Of a stretch of DNA of 23,361 nt, positions 3,685 through 20,482 are shown piece after piece. The DNA lies in the IMG/VR virus record IMGVR_UViG_3300043427_004180, positions 1 through 23,361 of that record; one strand, written 5' to 3'. A program made the position numbers and the translations under genes. Source of the DNA: a virus. Below the pieces are notes generated by a model that saw only the letters and a program-made list of their open reading frames with translations, ran no database searches and was not told the DNA's origin. Positions within the stretch are counted from its first letter, which is position 1, and each line of letters starts with the position of its first letter.

Positions 3685-4815
3685 ATGCCTGCTCCCAACT
3701 CCTGGATCAAGCGTCAGAACACAGCACTGCGCCTGCGGGGCTGTGCGGTCTCACTGGACCTAGCTGGATCGAGGATCCGCCTGCGCGCGACCCTGCCGCC
3801 CAAACCATCGGACCCGATCGGCGCATCCGCGAGGCAGCAACGCATCAGCACGGGGCTGCTGTATCCGGAACAGGGAGAAGAAGCGATCGAGCTGGCGGAG
3901 GTCCTCAGCAAGGCCCTGGAACGGCATCGAATCGGCGCCGAAGCATTCGACTGGGCCCCCTGGCTGCGGCTCTCTGCCGCCAAGGAGCCATCGGTCTCGA
4001 CAGTGGCGGAGATCAGCGGACCGGCGGCAATCGAGCAGGCGCGGGAGTGGTGGTTTCGCCACGGAAAACACCGGTACGCCGCTGAGTCGACCTGGCAGAG
4101 CAGCTACGAGCGTCCGCTGCGTCCTCTGCGCGGTATCGCTCGCCTCGAGATGAGCCACCTGCATGCCCTCGTCGAGACCACAAAGGCCAAGACCCGTTAC
4201 CGGCGCGTCCTGACCACAGCGTGCGCCACCGTGGCGAGGGCGCTGCATTGGCCGGAGGATGCCATCGATGAGCTGCTCGCCAAGGGCAAGGGGTACGCGA
4301 TCTCCAGCGTCAAGGCCCGTGAAATCCCACCGGACGGCGTGATCGAGGCCGGGATCGACCGGCTGCCGTCCCATTGGCAGTGGGCCGTCGCCATGGTGGC
4401 GACCTACGGCTGCCGCCCCCATGAAGCCCTGAAATACGCCACGGTCCTGCCATCGGGACTGGCAAGTGTTCAGAACGGCAAGACCGGCGCGCGGCAGTCC
4501 CTGGCCCTGCCGGCGCAGTGGATCGAGAGATGGGACCTGCATCAGCAGCGCAGGCCAAACATTGACTTGAATCGCAACAATCAGCAGGTCGGCGGTCTGA
4601 TGAGCCAGATGCTGCTTCGTCGGAAGGCCGGATTCCGCGCTTACGACCTGCGGCACGCCTGGGCGGTGAGGGCGATCCACGACCCGAGGATCTCGCCGTC
4701 CCTGGCCGCAAAATCCATGGGGCACAGCCTGACGATGCACTCCATGGTGTATCAGCGCTGGTTTGATGGCAGCGAGCTGGAGGGCGTGCAGGCGCTGCTC
4801 AGTGCAACGTCCTGA
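3685..4815 (+). CDS. int: Tyrosine recombinase / phage integrase (376 aa)
   Basis: Site-specific recombinase that would integrate and excise the element. Catalytic residues can be placed in the C-terminal half: R244 in YGCRPHEAL, K266 in QNGKTGAR, the box Y320-DLR323-H324 in AYDLRHAWAVR (Tyr where many families have His), H347 in KSMGHS, and nucleophile Y356 in MVYQRW. The central region (about 105-215) is the expected SAM-like core-binding domain. The N-terminal 60 residues, with RLRATLP and ISTGL, match an arm-binding beta-sheet. Length is normal for the family and the gene looks intact. The Tyr-for-His form is, as I recall, usual in cyanobacterial integrases. Six 9-bp repeats precede the ATG, and a winged-helix gene overlaps its 3' end by 17 nt in convergent orientation. 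Confidence 0.93.
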   Translation: MPAPNSWIKRQNTALRLRGCAVSLDLAGSRIRLRATLPPKPSDPIGASARQQRISTGLLYPEQGEEAIELAEVLSKALERHRIGAEAFDWAPWLRLSAAKEPSVSTVAEISGPAAIEQAREWWFRHGKHRYAAESTWQSSYERPLRPLRGIARLEMSHLHALVETTKAKTRYRRVLTTACATVARALHWPEDAIDELLAKGKGYAISSVKAREIPPDGVIEAGIDRLPSHWQWAVAMVATYGCRPHEALKYATVLPSGLASVQNGKTGARQSLALPAQWIERWDLHQQRRPNIDLNRNNQQVGGLMSQMLLRRKAGFRAYDLRHAWAVRAIHDPRISPSLAAKSMGHSLTMHSMVYQRWFDGSELEGVQALLSATS

Positions 4816-6041: not shown

Positions 6042-7301
6042 ATGGGGCTTTCCATTCAGGACGCGCAATCCATTGCGTCAACAGCGGGGCGACTGGGCGT
6101 CGACCCAAGGGCACTCGGGGCGCTCATGGAAATGGAGTCTGGCCTGGACCCAAATATCTGGGGCGGCGCCGGAGGACAGTATCGCGGGCTGATTCAATTC
6201 GGACCCGGCGCTCGCAAAGAAGTCGGCTTGCCGAATAAGCCGATGACAATCGCCGAGCAGATGCCGTACGTCGAGAGGTATTTTCAGCAGCGGGGCTTCA
6301 CCCCAGGCAAGCATGGTACAACTGAGCTATATCGGACGGTACTGGTCGGAAACCCACGACAGAGCGGAACTGACAGCTTTGGCACCAACTCGGACAAAGC
6401 TGCTGAGCGCATGAAGCCGGGTGGTGACCTGTATCAACGATTTGCCGGCAAGTTTGATCCGGTTGCCAGCAAGATAGGAGCGCCCGGCAGCGCGGGAGCG
6501 GGGGCTCCTGCGGTACCCAGTACCCCTGACGGAACAAGCACGGAAGACGCCTTGCTCCGCCAGATCATGGGCGGCAGCAGCGAAAACGCGTTGGGGAACC
6601 TCGGATTGGGCTCGCTGAAAGCGCCTGGCCTTGAGGACATCGGTGGCACGCTGCCCGGCCTTAAGCTCGCCGGAGCCGCAGCCCCACTGGTTGCAGCGAT
6701 GTCCATCATGGATCCCGAAGCTGGCAGGATGGCCGGGGCACAGCTGCAGCAGGTGCTTGCCGATCGGCAGATCATGCAGGCGCATGGCGGATTGGCCAAA
6801 GCGTTGATGCCGGAAATTCCGGGGCTGCCAAGCGTGGACAGCGGGCGAGGCGTAGAAGCCATGACAGACATGGGGCAAGTTGCGGCACAAAACCCGTCAC
6901 CCGCGCAGAGGCCGCAAGGCGATGCACCCGGCATCCGAAAAACAGCGTACGGTGACAACGTTCAATTCGAAACACCCGATGGCGCTCGCTATCGACTGAT
7001 CCACGGCACAAAGGACCTCAAGACTGGCACCTATGTCCAGGGCGGCTGGGGACCCCAGGGCGCCAATCAGTACGGCGATCACTTCGATATCGCCCGGGTC
7101 GATGGCGGGTTTTTCGACCGATCGGCCCTGGATCAGTTCGCGCTTGTCAACGGCAAGCCAGTATCAGCAGGATTGACCGTCAAGGGAGGAGAGTTTGGCG
7201 CCTCACGTGATGGAGGCTCGCGGGTACACAAGGCGTGGGATTACGCATTCGGGAAAGGCGCCCGCCTACAACTGGCCAACGGAGCACGCTGGCTGCTGTA
7301 A
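6042..7301 (+). CDS. Virion lytic transglycosylase with C-terminal endopeptidase-like domain (419 aa)
   Basis: The N-terminal domain (about 1-135) fits a goose-lysozyme/SLT-type transglycosylase: ALMEMESGLDPNIW with the putative catalytic E32, then YRGLIQFGP matching the family's GLxQ block, YVERYF and the NSDKAAERM segment. Residues 140-300 are a Gly/Ala/Pro-rich, partly hydrophobic linker. The C-terminal 120 residues contain YGDHFDIARVDGGFF (H347, D349) and HKAWDYAFG (H396, D400), resembling metal-binding motifs of M23-type endopeptidases but in reversed order. Two murein-cleaving activities in one virion protein would serve cell-wall penetration during infection. Substrate and order of domains are inferred; the transglycosylase call is the firmer. 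Confidence 0.72.
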   Translation: MGLSIQDAQSIASTAGRLGVDPRALGALMEMESGLDPNIWGGAGGQYRGLIQFGPGARKEVGLPNKPMTIAEQMPYVERYFQQRGFTPGKHGTTELYRTVLVGNPRQSGTDSFGTNSDKAAERMKPGGDLYQRFAGKFDPVASKIGAPGSAGAGAPAVPSTPDGTSTEDALLRQIMGGSSENALGNLGLGSLKAPGLEDIGGTLPGLKLAGAAAPLVAAMSIMDPEAGRMAGAQLQQVLADRQIMQAHGGLAKALMPEIPGLPSVDSGRGVEAMTDMGQVAAQNPSPAQRPQGDAPGIRKTAYGDNVQFETPDGARYRLIHGTKDLKTGTYVQGGWGPQGANQYGDHFDIARVDGGFFDRSALDQFALVNGKPVSAGLTVKGGEFGASRDGGSRVHKAWDYAFGKGARLQLANGARWLL

Positions 7302-10310: not shown

Positions 10311-10753
10311 GCGGCGTATTCCTCCAGAAGCGCTTGAATGGAACGAGCCGGGTATTCACGGCTGACAGGAAAAAGCTGGGCACTGCTGTTGTCTAGCAGC
10401 AGAATTAACGCAGCCTTCTCGGGGCTGGTGCGCTCGATCTGATCAATCACATCCGCAAGGAAGGACTCGAGATCAACTGATCCCGCCTGACTAGCGGTAT
10501 CACGATCAGATCGGAGATCCTCCAGTGAGATATAGGAGCTTTCCTGGGCGTCTTTATGTAACCGAAGGCAGAGAACGCCAAGACCGCGTTGAGCGAGGCC
10601 CTTGTCGTAGAGGTTCAATAAATCGGCCAGCACCGCTTCGCAGGCCAGGGTGTTGACTTTCATGGCGGCTTCTTTGTCGCCTTTGCTGCCACCCTTCTCC
10701 ATGACCTCAGGGAAGAAGCGACGAAGAAGTTCGAGCTTGGTAGGTCGTGTCAT
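10307..10753 (-). CDS. Helical hypothetical protein (148 aa)
   Basis: The ATG at 10753 is one base after the ThyX stop. The product is a charged helical protein: TRPTKLELLRRFFPEVMEKG, KVNTLACEAVLADLLNLYDK, LGVLCLRLHKD, then SYISLEDLRSDRD and an acidic SFLADVIDQIERTSPEKA before a final VSREYPARSIQALLEEYA. The hydrophobic run AALILLLD is a buried strand or helix rather than a membrane span. It could be a small nucleotide-metabolism partner of ThyX, but no motif supports that. The frame is open to 10843; the upstream extension overlaps ThyX and is rejected. Confidence 0.7.
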   Translation of the reverse strand: MTRPTKLELLRRFFPEVMEKGGSKGDKEAAMKVNTLACEAVLADLLNLYDKGLAQRGLGVLCLRLHKDAQESSYISLEDLRSDRDTASQAGSVDLESFLADVIDQIERTSPEKAALILLLDNSSAQLFPVSREYPARSIQALLEEYAA

Positions 10754-10754
10754 G

Positions 10755-11465
10755 TCAGGGCGCGAGCATTGCTTTACCACGGCGGTTCTCGGCCCACCAG
10801 CTATAGACCTCAGGCGCCCAGCGCTGCACCTGAAGCGCAACAAGTTCCATCAGGCAGCGCATCTCCCACTGAGCGTCTGCCTTGAGGCGGATATCCAGAA
10901 GATGAAGCCAGCCACGCAGATTGAATGTGACGACGTCATTCTGGAAGTAACTGGTAATCAGGACCCCGCGAGCTTGCTCTTCGGAGACGCCTTTCTTGCG
11001 GAGATTGGCGTAGTCCATGGCCGAGGAAAGAGCCAACGCGATCGAGTCCTCGACGTCATGCTCAGTCCAGACGTAGGGGTCGCCCTGGCGATCGTGGTAT
11101 TTCCCGGGAGGACGGACGTAGAAGACGTCTTCCGGGGGGATCTCGCCGCTTGCGACCTTTTCGATGCGTGAGCCGGTATAACGCATCGACTGAACATCAT
11201 GCGAAGAAATGCGGTGAGTCCGCAACTGCATGATGGTATTGTGATCAGCCCGTAGAGCCAGTGTGAGCGAAGGATGCTCTAATGGACCCCAATGATTACG
11301 ATTTCCCTGAAGTAAGCGTTTGACGCAGATGCGGCCGCATTCAGACTCATCAAGTGAAGTCGACGCATGAAATTCTTCGGAGTAGTCGTTGTGCAGCGCA
11401 ATGTAAGCGACCATCTGGGGACATTCGGTCGCCGCGACGCGCTCTACCCGGAACGGGAGCGACAA
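10755..11465 (-). CDS. thyX: FAD-dependent thymidylate synthase ThyX (236 aa)
   Basis: Converts dUMP to dTMP using FAD, NADPH and methylene-tetrahydrofolate. The ThyX signature is present at residues 84-96 (HRISSHDVQSMRY), equivalent to the RHRx7S motif ending in S-x-R-Y. It is preceded by HWGPLEHPSLTL, the usual substrate-pocket block. It is followed by NLRGWLHLLDIRLKADAQWE (182-201), the C-terminal conserved segment. Length and domain order are normal. The likely start is TTG 11465, in register with the ThyX N-terminus (FRVERVAATEC); there is no good ribosome-binding site and an internal start cannot be excluded. With dCMP deaminase in the same operon it gives a phage thymidylate route. Confidence 0.93.
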   Translation of the reverse strand: MSLPFRVERVAATECPQMVAYIALHNDYSEEFHASTSLDESECGRICVKRLLQGNRNHWGPLEHPSLTLALRADHNTIMQLRTHRISSHDVQSMRYTGSRIEKVASGEIPPEDVFYVRPPGKYHDRQGDPYVWTEHDVEDSIALALSSAMDYANLRKKGVSEEQARGVLITSYFQNDVVTFNLRGWLHLLDIRLKADAQWEMRCLMELVALQVQRWAPEVYSWWAENRRGKAMLAP

Positions 11466-11560
11466 GAGTCAGGGGTGCAGCTGGGAGGCAGCTTATCGCC
11501 TTGGCGGGCACCACGCAAGACCTAGCGTGCACATGGCGAGTTTCTGACAGGAGTCGCAGA

Positions 11561-12205
11561 TCAGGCGATGAGCTCCTTGTAGCGCTTCAGCTGCGCCATC
11601 GTCTCGTCAAAGGTCGTCGGCTTGGAAACGGCCATCTTCTTGGGATCAATCTGCTGCGACAAGCGAGTCCCGTAATCGAGGCCCTCCGCAATGGCTAACT
11701 CAACTCGCTTCTGCTCGGTTTTTTGACCGGTCAAGTAGTCATCGATGTAGGCCCTGCCATAAGCATTGAGGTCGCTGTAGAAATCCTTTGACATCGGATC
11801 CGCTGGGGGCGGAGTCCGGGGGATTGCAGCGTTTTGTGTCTGGTACTCCTGGGCACGCTCGTAAGCGGCACGACGATCAGCGACTTGCTGTGACGATGCC
11901 GCAGGCTGCTGCGGGGCAGGAGCGGGAGCAGGCGCCGAGGGCTTGACGTCTTCTTTCTTATCGGCTGCTTGATTAAAGTTGATCTTGGACCAGACCGGAA
12001 CATTCTCAAAGCTGTATCCGGCGTTCGGATTGCTCCTCGCAAGGCGTCGCGTATCCGTGATGACCCATTTCTCGTTGGGGTCGTCAGACTTCAACTTCGG
12101 GGGCGCGGTGCCAGTCCACTGACGGCCATTGCCGCTTAAGGTCTGATAATTGGCCTCGAAGTCATCGGCGCGGATTCGAGAGGCGTAAGAAGGCACCGCT
12201 ACCAC
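11561..12205 (-). CDS. Hypothetical protein with Pro/Ala linker (214 aa)
   Basis: Starts at GTG 12205, with another GTG three codons on. The N-terminal domain (about 1-80) is beta/polar (YASRIRADDFEANYQTLSG, WTGTAPPKL, KWVITDTRRLARS). A low-complexity linker of Pro/Ala repeats (about 89-105) follows. The C-terminal helical domain has RRAAYERAQEYQTQN and ends MAQLKRYKELIA. The linker suggests a modular or tethered protein, such as a scaffold or virion component. It lies upstream of ThyX by 95 nt and after the HNH gene by 16 nt. Family not recognised. Confidence 0.68.
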   Translation of the reverse strand: MVAVPSYASRIRADDFEANYQTLSGNGRQWTGTAPPKLKSDDPNEKWVITDTRRLARSNPNAGYSFENVPVWSKINFNQAADKKEDVKPSAPAPAPAPQQPAASSQQVADRRAAYERAQEYQTQNAAIPRTPPPADPMSKDFYSDLNAYGRAYIDDYLTGQKTEQKRVELAIAEGLDYGTRLSQQIDPKKMAVSKPTTFDETMAQLKRYKELIA

Positions 12206-12221
12206 ATAGTCACTGATAGCA

Positions 12222-12917
12222 CTATGTTAAAAGGTCCAACGACCGCTCTGATTCCTCAGCCGGGACGTCGTCGTCCTCGTCTTCTTCATCCCCTAGCAGG
12301 CGCTGCTCAATCCAGGCTTCGTTCTGCTGAAGCAGGGTTTCGAATCGCTTGGGCGTCATCGAGGCGGAAGCTTCAAGGAAATCCTTGGTCTGACGCAGGA
12401 GCTTCATGGAGTTGAACTCCAGATCAATCAGCTGCAGTTTCCGCTGGTGGTAGAAGTGCGGAACGCCCTTGACGCGCAGGTGGAGTGGGTTGCAGCAATT
12501 GACGTTCTTGCAGATGGGGTGAATCGGGAGCCTGCCGACATCCCCCCATGTGTACCAAACGGCAACGCGCTGGGCGGCGTGGGCATTGCCGCGCGTCCAG
12601 TGACGAGCGATATGGAAGCGCCCAGAATTCCATCTGGGGCACTTGGTCCCCTGCCATTCCCAGCAGTCATCAGAGCCGCAGATATCGACAAGACTCCAAA
12701 ACTCGAGAAACTTGCGGCGATGCTGCCTGCTGATTTTGTGGATATCCAGCGAAAGGCGGCCTTCCGTTAACGCGGAAATGCAGCGAACACAAGCATATGA
12801 ATCGGAGTAACGAGGAATGCGGCCATCCTTGCTGCCGATGGCGTGTTCGTGAAAAAAGCACATCGGACCGCCTTCGATCTCGTGGTGGAGATTGGGCGGA
12901 ATCGGCCACTTAGCCAC
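12222..12917 (-). CDS. HNH-type endonuclease (231 aa)
   Basis: Resembles phage HNH proteins of the type with a CWEWQG block: C85-WEWQG (85-90), RFHIARHW, then AAQRVAVWYTWGDV, and the zinc/active region HPICKNVNCCNPLHL (133-147). An N-terminal Cys/His cluster (C20, H23, H25, C43, C46) forms an additional zinc site. The C-terminal half is helical with a final acidic tail (GDEEDEDDDVPAEE). The RVAVWYTW line replaces the more usual RVAYxLxxG; one catalytic His is hard to assign, so activity is uncertain. It may act as a homing or nicking nuclease. It sits inside the early operon between two unknown genes. Confidence 0.75.
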   Translation of the reverse strand: MAKWPIPPNLHHEIEGGPMCFFHEHAIGSKDGRIPRYSDSYACVRCISALTEGRLSLDIHKISRQHRRKFLEFWSLVDICGSDDCWEWQGTKCPRWNSGRFHIARHWTRGNAHAAQRVAVWYTWGDVGRLPIHPICKNVNCCNPLHLRVKGVPHFYHQRKLQLIDLEFNSMKLLRQTKDFLEASASMTPKRFETLLQQNEAWIEQRLLGDEEDEDDDVPAEESERSLDLLT

Positions 12918-13530: not shown

Positions 13531-14064
13531 TTAGGCGTCGATCGGCAAGAGCTGATCTTCGTAACCGTCCAAAGCGGGTTCAACCGCGCCAGAAAGCGGA
13601 ATGCGAGCGACAGGAATGCCTGCTTCGATAAACATCTGCCGGGCTGCGTCAAAGCTTTCCTGCCAGCGCATTGGCTCGACAAAGTTCGGAACGACGACGC
13701 GATTGATGCCCGCCTGAATCAACTGAGCAGCACACTGATTGCAAGTCATCAACGGAAACACATAAATCGTGCCGCCATGGAGGCAGACGCCGTGGCGAGC
13801 GGCGTAGGCGATGACATTGGCTTCGGCGTGCACCGTCATGAGCAGACGGGTTTCCCGGTGCTTCAAGCGAGCGATGTGATCGCCAACGTGCTGCGGGAAG
13901 CCGTTGTAACCAGAGGCCAGGACGCGCCGGTCGCGGACGCAGACGGCGCCAACCTTGGTGCTGGGATCCTTGCTCCATCCGGCAATGGTCCGAGCCAGAA
14001 GTAGAAAGCGCTGGTCCCAGTCCTGCGGCTGCCGTGGCGGGCGCATCTCGGGAGGGTTAGGCAT
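13531..14064 (-). CDS. Deoxycytidylate deaminase (177 aa)
   Basis: Zinc-dependent dCMP deaminase, converting dCMP to dUMP and so feeding ThyX. Key features: an N-terminal FLLLARTIAGWSKDPSTKVG (20-39), the family's usual opening; SGYNGFP; the active-site HAE at H79-A80-E81 in TVHAEANVI; and zinc cysteines C108 and C111 in LMTCNQCAAQLIQAGI. The usual PPC preceding the first zinc Cys is here LMTC, a minor variation. Length is typical for phage enzymes. The start is ATG 14064, 53 bp from a divergent plus-strand gene. Phage dCMP deaminases are usually regulated by dCTP/dTTP; the allosteric region is present in length but not verifiable here. Confidence 0.93.
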   Translation of the reverse strand: MPNPPEMRPPRQPQDWDQRFLLLARTIAGWSKDPSTKVGAVCVRDRRVLASGYNGFPQHVGDHIARLKHRETRLLMTVHAEANVIAYAARHGVCLHGGTIYVFPLMTCNQCAAQLIQAGINRVVVPNFVEPMRWQESFDAARQMFIEAGIPVARIPLSGAVEPALDGYEDQLLPIDA

Positions 14065-14956: not shown

Positions 14957-15631
14957 TCACTCCGCAGTAAATGTGACCTTCATGTCAGGAGCGGCATCTA
15001 GTGTCGGGGCGACAAAGTGCATGACGACCAATCGCAGGAAATCACGCTCCATGCGCAGCTCCGCGACCTGCTCACGCAACTGGACGACATCAGCGGCAAC
15101 TCCATTGGTCAAGCGATCATCGAAGGGAAGCTCCGTAAAGAGTTGATCGCTGGAGGATTGAGGCTGGGCGGGCTCGACCGGCTGGTTTTCCGGAACTGGC
15201 GCCTCCATGGCCATGTCTTCAGATCGTGAAGACCCCTGGCTGTTATGACGCATCTCCCGCAGCCAGCGGCTGATCGTGCTGTACGCGATACCGGTACGTG
15301 CCCCTGCCGCGAAGGCGGACAGCCCTTCATCCAGTACCAGCCGCAGGGCCTCTGCTTTCTGCTCATCCGAAATGAAGCGATACCCCCCAACGGGACCCAG
15401 AAGCGCACTTGTAATCAGGGTCCCGGCGGGTGTCTGGGATTGGGACTCGAGGGCCTGGGCCCTGTTGACCCAGTTCTTGACAGTGGACCAGCAAGTGCCG
15501 AACTCCCGGGCAACGGAGTTAATCGGCCGCCCCTCTTCGAGGACAAGGCGGACCATTTCGCGGCGCTCGGCGGGCTTGAAGCGAAGACGGTTGCGATGGC
15601 GAGTACGCGTGCGATGTGGAGTGTTAGGCAT
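14957..15631 (-). CDS. Transposase-derived DNA-binding protein with two HTH domains (224 aa)
   Basis: Two homeodomain-like HTH units are visible: residues 16-59 (FKPAERREMVRLVLEEGRPI ... FGTCWSTVKNWVNRA) and 85-129 (ISDEQKAEALRLVLDEGLSA ... TGIAYSTISRWLREM). The two share RLVLxEG and the S-T-(V/I) turn, so they arose by duplication. A linker of Pro/Gln/Ser follows, then a leucine-zipper-like coil (181-208: VVQLREQVAELRMERDFLRL). IS3 and related insertion sequences have an OrfA with this HTH-plus-coil plan. No integrase core (DDE) gene is adjacent and no inverted repeats are visible, so it is likely domesticated as a phage regulator. Start ATG 15631. Confidence 0.75.
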   Translation of the reverse strand: MPNTPHRTRTRHRNRLRFKPAERREMVRLVLEEGRPINSVAREFGTCWSTVKNWVNRAQALESQSQTPAGTLITSALLGPVGGYRFISDEQKAEALRLVLDEGLSAFAAGARTGIAYSTISRWLREMRHNSQGSSRSEDMAMEAPVPENQPVEPAQPQSSSDQLFTELPFDDRLTNGVAADVVQLREQVAELRMERDFLRLVVMHFVAPTLDAAPDMKVTFTAE

Positions 15632-16098: not shown

Positions 16099-16389
16099 TC
16101 AGGCGGCGTTGACGTCAGCACCGGAGCCGACCTCTGCGGCATCGAGCTGGATGGGGCGGTAGCCCTCCTGCCAGACAGTGCGCGCAGAGGCGTTCAGCTC
16201 GGTCCTGGTGAGGTTCCAGGACCGGAGGCAGTGGGTGAGGTCCGCCTTGATGTCAGCGGCGCCGTCAAAGGGCTCGTAGCGATTCCAGAGGCGGGCGCAG
16301 TCGACGATGTCCTGCCGAGAAGGCGTGGTGGCTGCCAATAGTCGATCCACCGTATGGCGATCAGTGGCATATAGGGGGTGTTGCTGCAT
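16099..16389 (-). CDS. Helical hypothetical protein, first gene of the early operon (96 aa)
   Basis: The ATG at 16389 opens a 96-residue helical product: ATDRHTVDRLLAATTPSRQD, then VDCARLWNRYEPF, DLTHCLRSWNLTRTELNASA and a C-terminus with AEVGSGADVN. It lies next to the repeat-rich region and is preceded by a candidate promoter, so it should be expressed first after infection or derepression. No motif is recognised. Short helical leaders of phage early operons are often regulators or host-takeover proteins; this is context only. Confidence 0.65.
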   Translation of the reverse strand: MQQHPLYATDRHTVDRLLAATTPSRQDIVDCARLWNRYEPFDGAADIKADLTHCLRSWNLTRTELNASARTVWQEGYRPIQLDAAEVGSGADVNAA

Positions 16390-16412
16390 GCGGTGTCCGC
16401 TGTGTCGCGCGG

Positions 16413-16440
16413 ATCGTAGCGCTTATCGCGCAAGCAGCAA
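16413..16440 (-). promoter_or_regulatory. Candidate promoter for the early operon
   Basis: On the minus strand TTGCTG (16440-16435) and TACGAT (16418-16413) are separated by 16 nt, about 23 nt before the ATG at 16389. Matches to sigma-70 consensus are partial (3/6 and 4/6). It lies 34 nt downstream of the GGTGAC...GTCACC inverted repeat at 16474-16492, which could be its operator. Confidence 0.35.
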
Positions 16441-16473
16441 GGGGGCGGGGCTTGGCCCGGGGAAAACCAGCGA

Positions 16474-16492
16474 GGTGACGGGGGGAGTCACC
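16474..16492. repeat. Inverted repeat GGTGAC-N7-GTCACC
   Basis: Arms at 16474-16479 and 16487-16492 are perfect. The left arm overlaps the first GTGACGGGG copy. This is the copy closest to the early-operon start (16389) and the best operator candidate for that promoter. Confidence 0.6.
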
Positions 16493-16500
16493 ATTGAAGC

Positions 16501-16520
16501 CAGTCATTGCAAAGGGTTTG
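16501..16520 (+). repeat. Direct repeat copy 1 (CAGTCATTGC type)
   Basis: A 20-bp element, 18/20 identical to 16893-16912, begins CAGTCATTGC and ends GGGTTTG. Both copies lie 27-44 bp downstream of the start of a GGTGACGGGG copy, so they form composite units with it. Confidence 0.55.
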
Positions 16521-16737
16521 AGCGAAGCCCCTGCGATTTAGTGACCCCCCGTGATCAAGGCGTCATCTCAGGATCGGCTGCAGGGGAAGAGAGTTCGCGG
16601 AAGGTGACGGGGTTGACGGGGTTTCCGTAACTCTCTTTTTATTGTTCTCCCTCTTTCCTGTCTTTAGAGAGCAGGCTTCATGGACGAATGCTAGCGAGCA
16701 CGCCATGGGTAGTTGTACCTAGAAACGAGCAGTCTCA

Positions 16738-16764
16738 GTGACGGGGTAGAAGAGACCCCGTCAC
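16738..16764. repeat. Perfect 10-bp palindrome of the GTGACGGGGT motif
   Basis: GTGACGGGGT (16738-16747) and ACCCCGTCAC (16755-16764) flank a 7-nt centre. No T-run follows on either strand, so it is not a terminator. The arms being the 9-mer of this region marks it as a head-to-head pair of protein-binding half-sites. Confidence 0.75.
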
Positions 16765-16892
16765 GGGCCCCCTACCAATGACAGGTCTCTGCAAAAGCCT
16801 GACAACCCCGCACATCGGCCCAGATCGACTGCAGTGCAGGGAATCTGAGGTGACGGGGTCGCGGCAGACCCCTGACAGGGTCAAATCGAGCC

Positions 16893-16912
16893 CAGTCATT
16901 GCAGTGGGTTTG
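16893..16912 (+). repeat. Direct repeat copy 2 (CAGTCATTGC type)
   Basis: The second copy of the 20-bp element at 16501-16520, differing at two positions. The separation is 392 bp. Confidence 0.55.
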
Positions 16913-17071
16913 GTTTTCCTTAAGAATCTCGGCGAACGCGTAGCCCAGCAAGGAGTGTACGCGTTGCTACAAGAATGCAAGCCCAACGGCGTCTCGCCAT
17001 GGGACTCATGAGCCGGAGGTGACGGGGTCGCCGTGAAGAAAACATAAACACGAAGACAGCAAGAGGCAATG

Positions 17072-17093
17072 AAAAAGCGCCCCATCGGAGCGC
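17072..17093 (-). terminator. Rho-independent terminator of the primase-helicase gene
   Basis: On the minus strand GCGCTCC, GAT loop, GGGGCGC, then five T (17076-17072). The seven-pair stem includes one G-T. It lies 33 nt after the primase-helicase stop at 17127, the expected place. Confidence 0.7.
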
Positions 17094-17126
17094 CTTGTGG
17101 ATCGGATGTGTGTCGGCGATGCAGGC

Positions 17127-19616
17127 TCAGTCCTCCAGCAGGGCATTTCGGATCCAGATGCGCCGAACCTGTCCAGCGATCTTGGCGCGCTTAACCTGCC
17201 AGCCAAGGCGCTTCAGGGCATCCGTGATGGCCAGGGAGATCGTGGGTTGCCGGTCGACCGGGATATCGAGCCACTCAAAGATATCGGCCAATGTGACGTA
17301 ATTGATCTTCTGCCAGATCCCACTGCAGCGAGTCTCAAGCACGCTGGCCACCTTTGCCTCAATAGCACTGTCGCTGATGAAGCTGTTTTGGTAGCCGTTG
17401 ATCATTGCCAACTCGTGGCTAGCCCAGGTGTGCGCTTTATTGTCCATGTAGGCCCTGCAGGCAGCAGCCCAGATGGCTTCCCGGTCGCGCTTAAGGCGAT
17501 CCAGATCGACAATTTTGACGCTGCGATTGAGCGGGTTACGGATCTTGCCAGCAACCACGACTGGCATGAAGCGTCGGTTGCCGGTTGGATCAACGAGAAA
17601 ATCCGTACTGTTCGTGGCGCCGCAGAGAACAAAGCCACGGGGGAAGTCACGTTCGTTCTCGTACTTGCGAGCTGAACGGTCGACTGAGATGGACACCATG
17701 TTCTTGAGCTCCTCGGTGTAGCGACGCTTGAAGAAGCGCTCCACCTCGTCAAGAACAACGAACCAAGCAGCGTGCAACTGGTGCGGGCGATCCTTCAGGG
17801 TCTGAATTCCCTGCTGGATAGTGCTGACCCACGGATAATTGTTGCTGTCGTTATTATCGGGCGGAGTGAGGTATCGGAAGAAATTCGATTTGCCCGAGTT
17901 CTGACTGCCAATCAGGATGGGCATCCAGTCATGGTCGCATCCTGGCTGCATCACGCGAGCGACAGCACCAATAAGAAAGCGTTCAATGATGACATCAGCA
18001 AGCTTGCGGCCCTCATCGAGATCAGGATTCATCAGTGGATCCCCGCTGAGACCAAGGATCTCGGTAGCGATGCTTTCGAAATAGGGGCAGGGCTCGGCAT
18101 TGGCAATACAGTGCTCGAGGTAGGCCCTCACCGGGTGGTAGCGATTTTCGTAGCCGATGACTTGCGCGACGTCGTAGACCAGGGTTTTAGGAAAGACCTT
18201 GTCAGTGCCCCGTGAGATGCGGACGTAAGATGTCGAGGAATCGTGGATGACCTTGGGTGCGTCGGCGGGCCCGTATTCCAGCTGCAGCGACAATGCGTTT
18301 TGCCGTAGGCCTGGGTACATAGCCTGCAGCCGGGACTTGATTGTCTCGATGACATCGTCTTCACCGCCACGTTGTCCGCGTCGACGCGGAATACCTGCTC
18401 GAGGTTGCTCTGGCGGAGTGAAGTCGCCCAGGATGTCGGCGTAGGGATCCTCGAGGAGTTCAGGATCGATCTCCTCGTCGGAGTCGTCGAAGTCCTCGTC
18501 GTGGAAGGCGGGAGGTCCGTCGGCACCTGAACCTGCTGCGATACCGGCAGGTTTAACGGCTGGCTGCTCCGGCGGTTGCAGGACAGTCATCCAGGGCCGC
18601 TCGGTGTCGAACAGCGAAGGAGTCGCCAGTTCTGCCGTGGTGATCTGCCGGGGGCGTTCGTTTTCTTCGTCGATCAGGCCGAGGAAGTCCTCGTGGTCGT
18701 AGCCGGCGACATTGGCGGTGGCGTGCGTGAAGGAGAACGATGAGCGCAGCTCCTCGGGCAGGGCCTTGCGCCAGTCCGGGTTCTGCTCGGACGCCAGGAA
18801 GAAGAGCGTCGCCAGGGTCGAGCGACCATGGAAGCCCCGGAAGAACTTCTCGTTGGCCTGCCGGGAGTTCTTGCCGGAGCCGTGGTGTCCGCGAGAAGCC
18901 CAGTCACTCCAGGCTTGGAACAGAGGTTCGCCAGCCGAGGCTGCTGCTGCAGTGGTGCGGATGAAGCGATCCCGCTCGCCGTCGGAGGTGGGCTCGAGGA
19001 CCTGCTCCAACACGAAGACTGCTTGTCGGATGGTGTTGTCGTCGTAGTGAGCGGTGGCCCGGTCGTACTGGACGCGGGTACGGCCTGCTTCCGTACGGGC
19101 GTCGTCGATGATGGATTCCGGCAGGACCGCGTCGGGATTCCAGATCGGGTGCTCGGCCTGGTCGTTGCCGTAGAAGAGGCGGCAGGGATCCGTGCAGGAG
19201 CGGTCCCCGCCGAGGGAACGGCTCAGTAGCGTGACGGTCGCCTTGTAGAGGTCGGGGTCATCGATCCGCCACGGCAGACGGAAGATCACGCGGAAGCGCT
19301 CCTGCTCACCCGGGCGGTGACTGCAGGTGGTGTACACCCAGGCAGCCGAGGAAGCCAGTGGGTGGGAGCGGAACTGCTCGATGGTGAGGCCATGGTCGAT
19401 GTCGACCACGACGAGGTCCGCGTACCCAAAGGCGGCGGTACTGCGGTGAGCGCTGGTCATTGCCGCAGGGATGAAGGCGTATCCCTGCGAGATGAAGCCC
19501 TTGAGGGTCTCAAGGCTGCCCTTGCGTTCGGCCCAGTCGTCAGCGAAGGCTGGCTCCCAGGTGGGCGGCTTGTTGCGGATGATGGGGTGGATCGAAAACG
19601 GATGCTCGACTGCCAT
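17127..19616 (-). CDS. AEP primase-polymerase fused to a VapE-type helicase (829 aa)
   Basis: Replication initiator of the element. The N-terminal domain is an archaeo-eukaryotic primase: motif I D72-I-D74 in VVVDIDHGL, motif II S99-H100 in YTTCSHRPGE with RFRVIFRLPW, motif III D143/R146 in TDPCRLFYGN. A linker with a very acidic stretch (371-392) follows. The C-terminal half is a VapE/SF3-like ATPase: Walker A GSQNSGKS (570-577), Walker B WFVVLDEVE (618-626), then RSARKYE, CGATNSTDF and GNRRFMPV (679-686). The frame is open to a GTG at 19694, but that extension contains the operator and promoter region, so ATG 19616 (MAVEHPF) is chosen. The fused layout is typical of plasmid/phage primase-helicases. 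Confidence 0.9.
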   Translation of the reverse strand: MAVEHPFSIHPIIRNKPPTWEPAFADDWAERKGSLETLKGFISQGYAFIPAAMTSAHRSTAAFGYADLVVVDIDHGLTIEQFRSHPLASSAAWVYTTCSHRPGEQERFRVIFRLPWRIDDPDLYKATVTLLSRSLGGDRSCTDPCRLFYGNDQAEHPIWNPDAVLPESIIDDARTEAGRTRVQYDRATAHYDDNTIRQAVFVLEQVLEPTSDGERDRFIRTTAAAASAGEPLFQAWSDWASRGHHGSGKNSRQANEKFFRGFHGRSTLATLFFLASEQNPDWRKALPEELRSSFSFTHATANVAGYDHEDFLGLIDEENERPRQITTAELATPSLFDTERPWMTVLQPPEQPAVKPAGIAAGSGADGPPAFHDEDFDDSDEEIDPELLEDPYADILGDFTPPEQPRAGIPRRRGQRGGEDDVIETIKSRLQAMYPGLRQNALSLQLEYGPADAPKVIHDSSTSYVRISRGTDKVFPKTLVYDVAQVIGYENRYHPVRAYLEHCIANAEPCPYFESIATEILGLSGDPLMNPDLDEGRKLADVIIERFLIGAVARVMQPGCDHDWMPILIGSQNSGKSNFFRYLTPPDNNDSNNYPWVSTIQQGIQTLKDRPHQLHAAWFVVLDEVERFFKRRYTEELKNMVSISVDRSARKYENERDFPRGFVLCGATNSTDFLVDPTGNRRFMPVVVAGKIRNPLNRSVKIVDLDRLKRDREAIWAAACRAYMDNKAHTWASHELAMINGYQNSFISDSAIEAKVASVLETRCSGIWQKINYVTLADIFEWLDIPVDRQPTISLAITDALKRLGWQVKRAKIAGQVRRIWIRNALLED

Positions 19617-19656
19617 GGCGTGCGCCGTGTTGGTCTCTGTCTGACACGGCGGGCAG

Positions 19657-19684
19657 ATGCTAGCCAGGACCCTGTCCCCGTCAA
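19657..19684 (-). promoter_or_regulatory. Candidate promoter of the primase-helicase gene
   Basis: On the minus strand TTGACG (19684-19679) and TAGCAT (19662-19657) are separated by 16 nt, placing transcription start about 30-35 nt before the ATG at 19616. The -35 box is part of the GGGGTTGACGGGG motif at 19676-19688, so a protein binding that motif would occlude RNA polymerase. Confidence 0.5.
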
Positions 19685-19688
19685 CCCC
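19676..19688 (-). promoter_or_regulatory. Operator-like GGGGTTGACGGGG
   Basis: This 13-mer on the minus strand matches the one at 16609-16621 on the plus strand exactly. It is a TTGACGGGG variant of the GTGACGGGG motif and overlaps the primase-helicase promoter. Confidence 0.6.
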
Positions 19689-19730
19689 ATGCACGGCGTG
19701 CCTTGTACCCCTGCAATGCCAGTCCAGGAC

Positions 19731-19759
19731 TTGCTTGCTGCGTAATTGATACTGATAAT
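19731..19759 (+). promoter_or_regulatory. Candidate promoter of the XRE regulator
   Basis: TTGCTT (19731-19736) and GATAAT (19754-19759, 5/6 of TATAAT) are separated by 17 nt. Transcription would begin near 19766, inside the double operator at 19764-19785, implying autoregulation. Confidence 0.45.
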
Positions 19760-19763
19760 GGGC

Positions 19764-19785
19764 GTCAACCCCGTCACCCCGTCAC
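19764..19785 (-). promoter_or_regulatory. Double operator: two overlapping GTGACGGGG plus GGGGTTGAC
   Basis: The minus strand carries GTGACGGGG at 19785-19777 and again at 19777-19769, sharing one base, then runs into TTGAC. It sits just downstream of the regulator's -10 box and upstream of the primase-helicase promoter, a divergent control region. Confidence 0.65.
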
Positions 19786-19828
19786 GACGGACTACGGTGC
19801 TATCACCCCCAGATCAGCGAGTCTTGCA

Positions 19829-20482
19829 ATGACACAGGCAGGCGATAAGCCAGTACGACAGCCCGTGCTCCATACAGATGAGGAGCGCGCCCAGATCGAC
19901 CGATTTGTCAAGGCCATCAACCAGGCGATGGTGGTCAACGGCCTGTCGCAGCGCGGGCTGTGCAATCTGATCGGCGTCAAGGTCGGCACCCTGACCAAGT
20001 ACCTGCGCGGTGAGGTGGCGCCCATGAAGGTCGGGATCGGGATCCAGTCCGCCCTGGCAGACGTGCTGGGTGTGACGACCGATGCCCTGCTGGGTTACTA
20101 CCGGAATGAGGAGTACCTGACGGCGGTGACCCTGGATCAGGTGGAGAGCTGGATCCGTAGCGACGCAGGCCAGGAAGATTTCCCTGTGATCATGGCGTCA
20201 CTGCAAGCCGCCAGCCAACGATTGGTGAGCGGTGAAGCGAAGCCGGCGCAGCAAGAAGAGGAGGATGTACTGCAGCCATGGGATTGGCCTCAGCGCGAAC
20301 TGGAGGAGGCGCAGCTGTCGGAGCGGTTCCTGGAGCGAAATGGACTCACTGAGGAGCGGATTGCAGCACTGGTGGAGCGAGGTGAGTACGACGAAGACCT
20401 GGTCGAGGCATTTTCTGTGGCGTGCAATTACGAGCTGGATGCCGTGCGTGAAGCATTCAGGTCGCGTCAAGCCATCGCGTAG
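19829..20482 (+). CDS. XRE-family transcriptional regulator (217 aa)
   Basis: Residues 20-90 form a helix-turn-helix of the XRE/Cro-CI type: FVKAINQAMVVNGLSQRGLC, then NLIGVKVGTLTKYLRGEVAP (46-65). The rest is helical and charged: LDQVESWIRSDAG, FPVIMASLQAASQRLVSGEA, an acidic EEEDVLQPWDWP, and a long C-terminal helix ending REAFRSRQ. There is no LexA/CI S24 peptidase domain, so it is not a self-cleaving repressor; the extra 120 residues may be for oligomerisation. Start ATG 19829 is chosen because upstream codons lie in the promoter region. It is divergent from the primase-helicase gene and flanked by GTGACGGGG operators, making it the likely switch protein. Confidence 0.82.
   Translation: MTQAGDKPVRQPVLHTDEERAQIDRFVKAINQAMVVNGLSQRGLCNLIGVKVGTLTKYLRGEVAPMKVGIGIQSALADVLGVTTDALLGYYRNEEYLTAVTLDQVESWIRSDAGQEDFPVIMASLQAASQRLVSGEAKPAQQEEEDVLQPWDWPQRELEEAQLSERFLERNGLTEERIAALVERGEYDEDLVEAFSVACNYELDAVREAFRSRQAIA

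Follow-up and report, generated by a model that had tools for sequence, protein, structure and literature searches.

A candidate iteron-type replication origin beside the primase-helicase gene in a group of cyanophages

The virus record IMGVR_UViG_3300043427_004180 of IMG/VR, analyzed here over its full length of 23,361 nucleotides ("the window"), encodes on its minus strand a primase-helicase that is directly followed by a non-coding gap (16390–17126) and a DUF3288 gene. On sequence grounds, this gap is probably a replication origin composed of iterons and a DNA-unwinding element (DUE), and recognized by the C-terminal winged helix of the primase-helicase. This reading draws on the repeats and their positions, the conservation of the layout among relatives, the location of the weakest duplex, the homology of the protein to PriRep1 and the covariation of the repeat with the C-terminal domain of the protein.

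Repeats, weak DNA and the proposed initiator

The motif GTGACGGGG occurs in eight exact copies, with starts at 16475, 16604, 16738, 16850, 17019 (plus strand), 16756, 19769 and 19777 (minus strand). All eight had been reported in the first-pass annotation of this DNA, and their number is far above the chance expectation of 0.32 (none of 100 shuffles reached eight); in agreement with the same annotation, no further copy was found across the whole record. When the motif is widened to TGACRGGG, 12 sites are found, namely eight in the 737-bp gap, three in the 212-bp spacer upstream of the primase-helicase gene and one elsewhere, such that 11 of the 12 are concentrated in 4% of the window. Both TTGACGGGG variants that had been proposed (16613–16621 and 19676–19684) are present, and the arms of the perfect 10-bp palindrome could be located. 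Two elements had been overlooked: a TGACAGGG site at 16873 and a 16-mer, GGTGACGGGGTTGACG, at 16603–16618, which is exactly repeated in inverted orientation at 19763–19778 and is common to gap and spacer. The gap, the sites within it and the genes on either side are:

16099–16389, minus: DUF3288 gene, which follows the candidate origin (PF11691, E = 1.8e-23; four-helix model)
16390–17126, minus: non-coding gap, candidate replication origin, between the 3' end of the primase-helicase gene and the 5' end of DUF3288 (synteny and TGACRGGG sites)
16475–16483, plus: DUF3288-proximal iteron GTGACGGGG (motif count)
16604–16621, plus: tandem iteron pair GTGACGGGG-TTGACGGGG with 9-bp spacing, the DUF3288-side array (position conserved in relatives by alignment)
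16621–16670, no strand: candidate DUE and conserved purine-rich box, minus strand AAAGAGGGAGAACAATAAAAAGAGAGTTACGGAAA (stability; alignment across relatives)
16738–16764, no strand: inverted iteron pair with perfect 10-bp arms, GTGACGGGGT (16738–16747) and ACCCCGTCAC (16755–16764) (motif count)
16850–16880, plus: iteron GTGACGGGG and the TGACAGGG variant (motif count)
17019–17027, plus: primase-proximal iteron GTGACGGGG, adjoining a GAGTCYCAT element that is present in many relatives too (alignment)
17127–19616, minus: primase-helicase, the proposed initiator, with an N-terminal primase domain like those of archaeo-eukaryotic primases (AEP), a VapE/SF3-type helicase and a C-terminal winged helix (about residues 736–829)

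The tandem pair at 16604–16621 matches at nine of nine positions, which none of 100 shuffles equalled. Duplex stability reaches its minimum for the entire window in the 50 bp at 16621–16670 (62% AT), which touch this array and have two iteron sets, 16604–16621 and 16738–16880, around them. Among 15 relatives tested, the weakest stretch of the gap is within the weakest 1.2% of the locus in 14, and within the weakest 3.1% in the remaining one (L119; L and G numbers are our labels for records of relatives), and in several loci the weakest 50 bp likewise fall inside the gap. Two sets flanking an AT-rich region are clear in L117, L118, L126, L131 and L147 and weak in several other relatives. The gap folds better than its shuffles, with a z of -3.34 that inverted repeats alone are able to cause, and no Rfam match to a structured RNA was found in the region. 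The gap also holds a further family of repeats, 28-nt copies at 16493–16520 and 16885–16912 that are 82% identical and contain CAGTCATTGCA..GGGTTTG.

The primase-helicase possesses a VapE-like helicase domain (PF05272, E = 6e-42). A profile of the protein and its relatives (A2) matched by sequence a single solved structure, that of PriRep1 with double-stranded DNA (7pds_A, E = 1.3e-21), and a Foldseek search with the AlphaFold model returned the same structure first (7pds, 1.3e-7), followed by the AEP domain of the S-2L PrimPol (3.4e-6). The model is confident for most of the N-terminal domain and for the C-terminal domain near residues 736–829, which we call a winged helix on the basis of how its helices and strands succeed one another in the model. 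The protein probably starts at the ATG at 19616; the version that begins with the GTG at 19694 is likely to be too long, because the proteins of relatives start at the position corresponding to 19616.

In the mechanism that we propose, the C-terminal winged helix would bind the TGACRGGG iterons and hexamers of the primase-helicase would form on the iteron sets. Next, the weak stretch of duplex, 16621–16670, would melt, the VapE-type helicase would be loaded and the N-terminal primase domain would synthesize primers.

Conserved layout and covariation among relatives

Relatives were sought by scanning IMG/VR DNA with the pattern TGACGGGGNTGACGGGG, which holds no protein information and returned 81 stretches. 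Three of these (L003, L018 and L029) encode primases 50–58% identical to that of the window and have an identical paired repeat between the primase gene and DUF3288. Protein alignments then enlarged the set to about 30 relatives, mostly metagenomic fragments. An IMG/VR scan with the single primase sequence of the window gave no match, an alignment being needed as the query, and no DNA similarity of the window to phage records was found. Another pattern, GTGACGGGGTGACGGGG, returned contigs with repeats, none of which was found to encode the window-type primase.

The gene order primase, gap, DUF3288, dCMP deaminase, HNH is kept in about 30 relatives, and a divergent regulator is present upstream of the primase in some of them, always in the same divergent layout. 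Extra genes, 2-oxoglutarate-Fe oxygenase-like by eye, stand between primase and gap in L003 (6551–7222), L117 and L131, which indicates that the gap is linked to DUF3288 and not to the primase stop codon.

Most relatives contain 8–9-bp tandem repeats in the gap, many of them at a shuffle P of 0.02 or less, and the repeated sequence is lineage-specific: ACCCCGGTT in L124, GTACCCCGC in L121 and L123, CCTGGCAC in L129, GACCGTCAC in L136 and GTACCGC in L147. Outside the gap, these words occur seldom or not at all (GGTACC, five versus none in 18 kb of L120; GGGTAC, five versus none in L121; CCCTGTC, four versus none in L118), and the six TGACRGGG sites of G005, a record of 50.8 kb, are all within 264 bp of the gap. 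According to the alignment, the purine-rich box precedes the DUF3288-side array across relatives, and farther upstream there are recurring elements, ACCTTTATT-like and GAGTCTCAT.

A comparable arrangement exists in isolated phages. The Synechococcus phage S-LBS1 (L110, MG271909) has 11 copies of CCTAACC and six of GCCCAACC 3' of its primase, partly spaced by 9 bp, in opposite orientation and adjoining the weakest DNA of the locus; neither word was found upstream of the primase within the locus examined. Phage S-2L has a weaker version of the array 3' of its primase. The S-LBS1 record ends with about 125 bp that repeat a nearby stretch (about 6127–6250 and 6381–6509), perhaps as an assembly end effect. 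On plasmids of Nostoc and Cyanobacterium aponinum that carry VapE, no obvious iterons adjoin the gene.

Since the spelling of the repeat changes between lineages, its divergence can be compared with that of the proteins encoded nearby. Pairwise differences between the right-hand arrays of 17 representatives were set against protein differences, for the domains of the primase as correlations partial on the rest of the protein. Within the primase-helicase, repeat divergence tracks only the C-terminal residues 736–829 (partial r = 0.56, p about 0.001), compared with 0.08 for the N-terminal domain, 0.21 for the middle and 0.13 for VapE. Both DUF3288 and the XRE regulator (the latter in 8 taxa) gave -0.06. 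This result supports, but does not prove, recognition of the repeat by the C-terminal winged helix.

Several observations weigh against an origin read by this domain. The control genes gave correlations of 0.26 (HNH) and 0.41 (dCMP deaminase, p = 0.03), both of which show the background that can arise from phylogeny; the segments of the arrays had been selected visually, and the label permutation ignores phylogeny. The arrays of L125, L132, L133, L135, L140, L144, L149 and L166 are weak or not significant by shuffling, and L134 and L164, the nearest relatives of the window by N-terminus, have somewhat different repeats. The AlphaFold model (predicted TM-score, 0.38) is of low quality in the region of the helicase core. 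A minimum of GC skew, which had been suggested as a mark of the origin, was looked for in four long contigs, where the skew follows gene direction or drifts and does not switch at the gap.

The group is one of cyanophages, with a host that we infer. Relatives reach 80–85 kb, one has an hli-like gene, and G002 encodes a virion protein and a TerL (phrog_38, E = 2e-66) with 52% identity to the terminase of Synechococcus phage S-EIV1; no terminase was detected in the 23-kb record of the window. S-EIV1 was rejected as a close reference, as despite its terminase it has a different primase (20% match, N-terminus only), beside which no matching array was seen. Contigs L165–L168 of a genome collection, labelled as a Euryarchaeota metagenome-assembled genome, carry the cyanophage primase module and are probably misbinned phage contigs. 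In L181, a proline-rich protein (10375–12693) has, by eye, an apparent intein or Hint-type insert (CPTPDQQILL...HNK).

The upstream spacer and alternative explanations

The remaining repeats are located on the other side of the primase-helicase gene:

19617–19828, no strand: divergent primase/regulator spacer, 212 bp (layout kept in relatives with the regulator)
19676–19684, minus: TTGACGGGG as the -35 of a candidate primase promoter (TTGACG-16-TAGCAT)
19769–19785, minus: double iteron with 8-bp spacing, at an operator-like position after the candidate -10 of the regulator (motif count)
19829–20482, plus (divergent): XRE/Cro-type regulator (HTH_31 and HTH_3 below the Pfam cut-off; PHROG transcriptional regulators)

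The promoter geometry described in the first-pass annotation is borne out in part. The motif does supply the -35 of the sole sigma-70-like match for the primase, although the one match found compares with 0.8 expected by chance. The double site is near the putative start of the regulator transcript, of which it would occupy about +3 to +20, counting from a candidate -10 (TGATAAT, 19753–19759, with TTGCTT 17 bp upstream) that was read from the sequence and is not significant alone. These positions, and the 16-mer common to gap and spacer, are what could be expected if the repeats were XRE operators that govern the promoters of the primase and of the regulator itself, as well as transcription entering the DUF3288 operon, with no origin involved. 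We regard this explanation as improbable, and XRE binding does not hold up as a general account of the repeats: L117, L118, L126 and L131 retain the same TGACRGGG array with no regulator detected in the records, the regulator's divergence does not track that of the repeat, and an operator would not predict the adjoining weakest DNA. Furthermore, in 13 relatives that have the regulator/primase spacer, repeat sharing between gap and spacer is no higher than in shuffles, the upstream copies being peculiar to the window.

The proposal that iterons flank the initiator on both sides is therefore retained for the 3' cluster, given its conserved position in about 30 relatives, the weak DNA and the covariation, and for the upstream side it applies to the window only. 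The upstream copies may serve as operators in this lineage, where the initiator could repress its own transcription or couple it to replication. Such autoregulation would be limited to the window, since no examined relative shares the repeat between gap and spacer and the regulator-less records keep the array. A single protein may use both groups of sites, as had been suggested, and the primase-helicase is more plausible in this role than the regulator.

A still less probable alternative is that the gap serves the DUF3288 operon as promoter/operator, under the control of DUF3288 itself or of a different phage protein. In many relatives the array is immediately before DUF3288, but in the window it is 215 bp from the start of that gene, and the S-LBS1 repeats are 3' of the primase at the end of a record in which no DUF3288 gene is annotated there. 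DUF3288, the divergence of which does not track the repeat, was rejected as a DNA-binding protein, its four-helix model having no significant structural match. It is about equally unlikely that the origin is read by a factor of the host, or by a phage protein other than the primase-helicase, with the latter recruited indirectly, as the repeat varies between phages and does so in step with the primase C-terminus.

DUF3288 homologs (alignment A3) have a C-terminal GSGAD that is invariant in 19 of 19 sequences, the rest having diverged. Near the replication module, the product of 14957–15631 (minus) has two transposase-type helix-turn-helix matches (PF13518 and PF01527). The record also encodes two NrdR-type zinc ribbon proteins (PF22811; 1931–2401 and 7691–7942, both minus), a ThyX-like thymidylate synthase (10755–11465, minus; phrog_85) together with a dCMP deaminase (13531–14064), and a weak integrase match (3685–4815, plus; phrog_1, E = 5e-4) that hints at a temperate or mosaic element.

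Relation to known replication systems

Iteron plasmids of the RepA type combine iterons with an AT-rich unwinding element and their initiators often autoregulate; the proposed initiator of the cyanophages is a helicase-primase and is not RepA-like. Satellite phage P4 (alpha/ori/crr) unites primase and helicase in one protein and uses short repeats as its origin, which is the arrangement envisaged here. The P4 primase, however, is of the Toprim type (PMC4234260). ORF904 of plasmid pRN1 and the protein of phage BIP-1 share with the window protein an AEP primase, an SF3 helicase and a C-terminal winged helix, and have an essential element 3' of the gene and an adjacent repressor gene, but the pRN1 origin is a long stem-loop (about 100 nt) without iterons (PMC4234260), in contrast to the clear iterons of the window.

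The closest parallel is with the Staphylococcus aureus pathogenicity islands (SaPIs) and other phage-inducible chromosomal islands (PICIs). The C-terminal domain of SaPI Rep recognizes iterons 3' of the rep gene (PMC7581432), and an origin with two iteron sets is described as common to PICIs and to no other known bacterial replicon (PMC6092414). Here as there (PMC6092414, PMC7581432), a PriRep1-related initiator is encoded directly 5' of the origin, iteron sets surround weak DNA, and a divergent regulator is found upstream. The differences are that the cyanophage initiator has an AEP-kind primase domain in the same chain, that DUF3288 follows the origin, and that the window adds iterons in the initiator promoter. 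Moreover, PICI satellites are small, helper-dependent and devoid of virion genes, whereas this is a phage family of up to 80–85 kb with terminase and virion proteins, as in G002.

We advance tentatively, as a reading with slightly less in its favor than against it, that a widespread lineage of cyanophages employs a satellite-like, PICI-type iteron origin, that iteron and initiator C-terminus switch together from lineage to lineage and so define origin-initiator compatibility groups of co-infecting phages, and that the iterons of the window's initiator double as operators. In the literature searched (subscription papers being outside its scope), only two papers mention cyanophages together with iterons, neither of them dealing with cyanophage origins according to title and abstract, and none mentions VapE together with iterons. 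The gap provides a defined candidate origin for a group of cyanophages from fresh and marine waters whose terminase relates them to S-EIV1. The matched sets of repeats and C-terminal domains offer a route to the code by which VapE-type initiators recognize their sites, and a way to ask whether phages exclude one another by origin type. If the two-set layout is indeed that of an origin in these phages, it would challenge the statement that such origins are exclusive to PICIs (PMC6092414).

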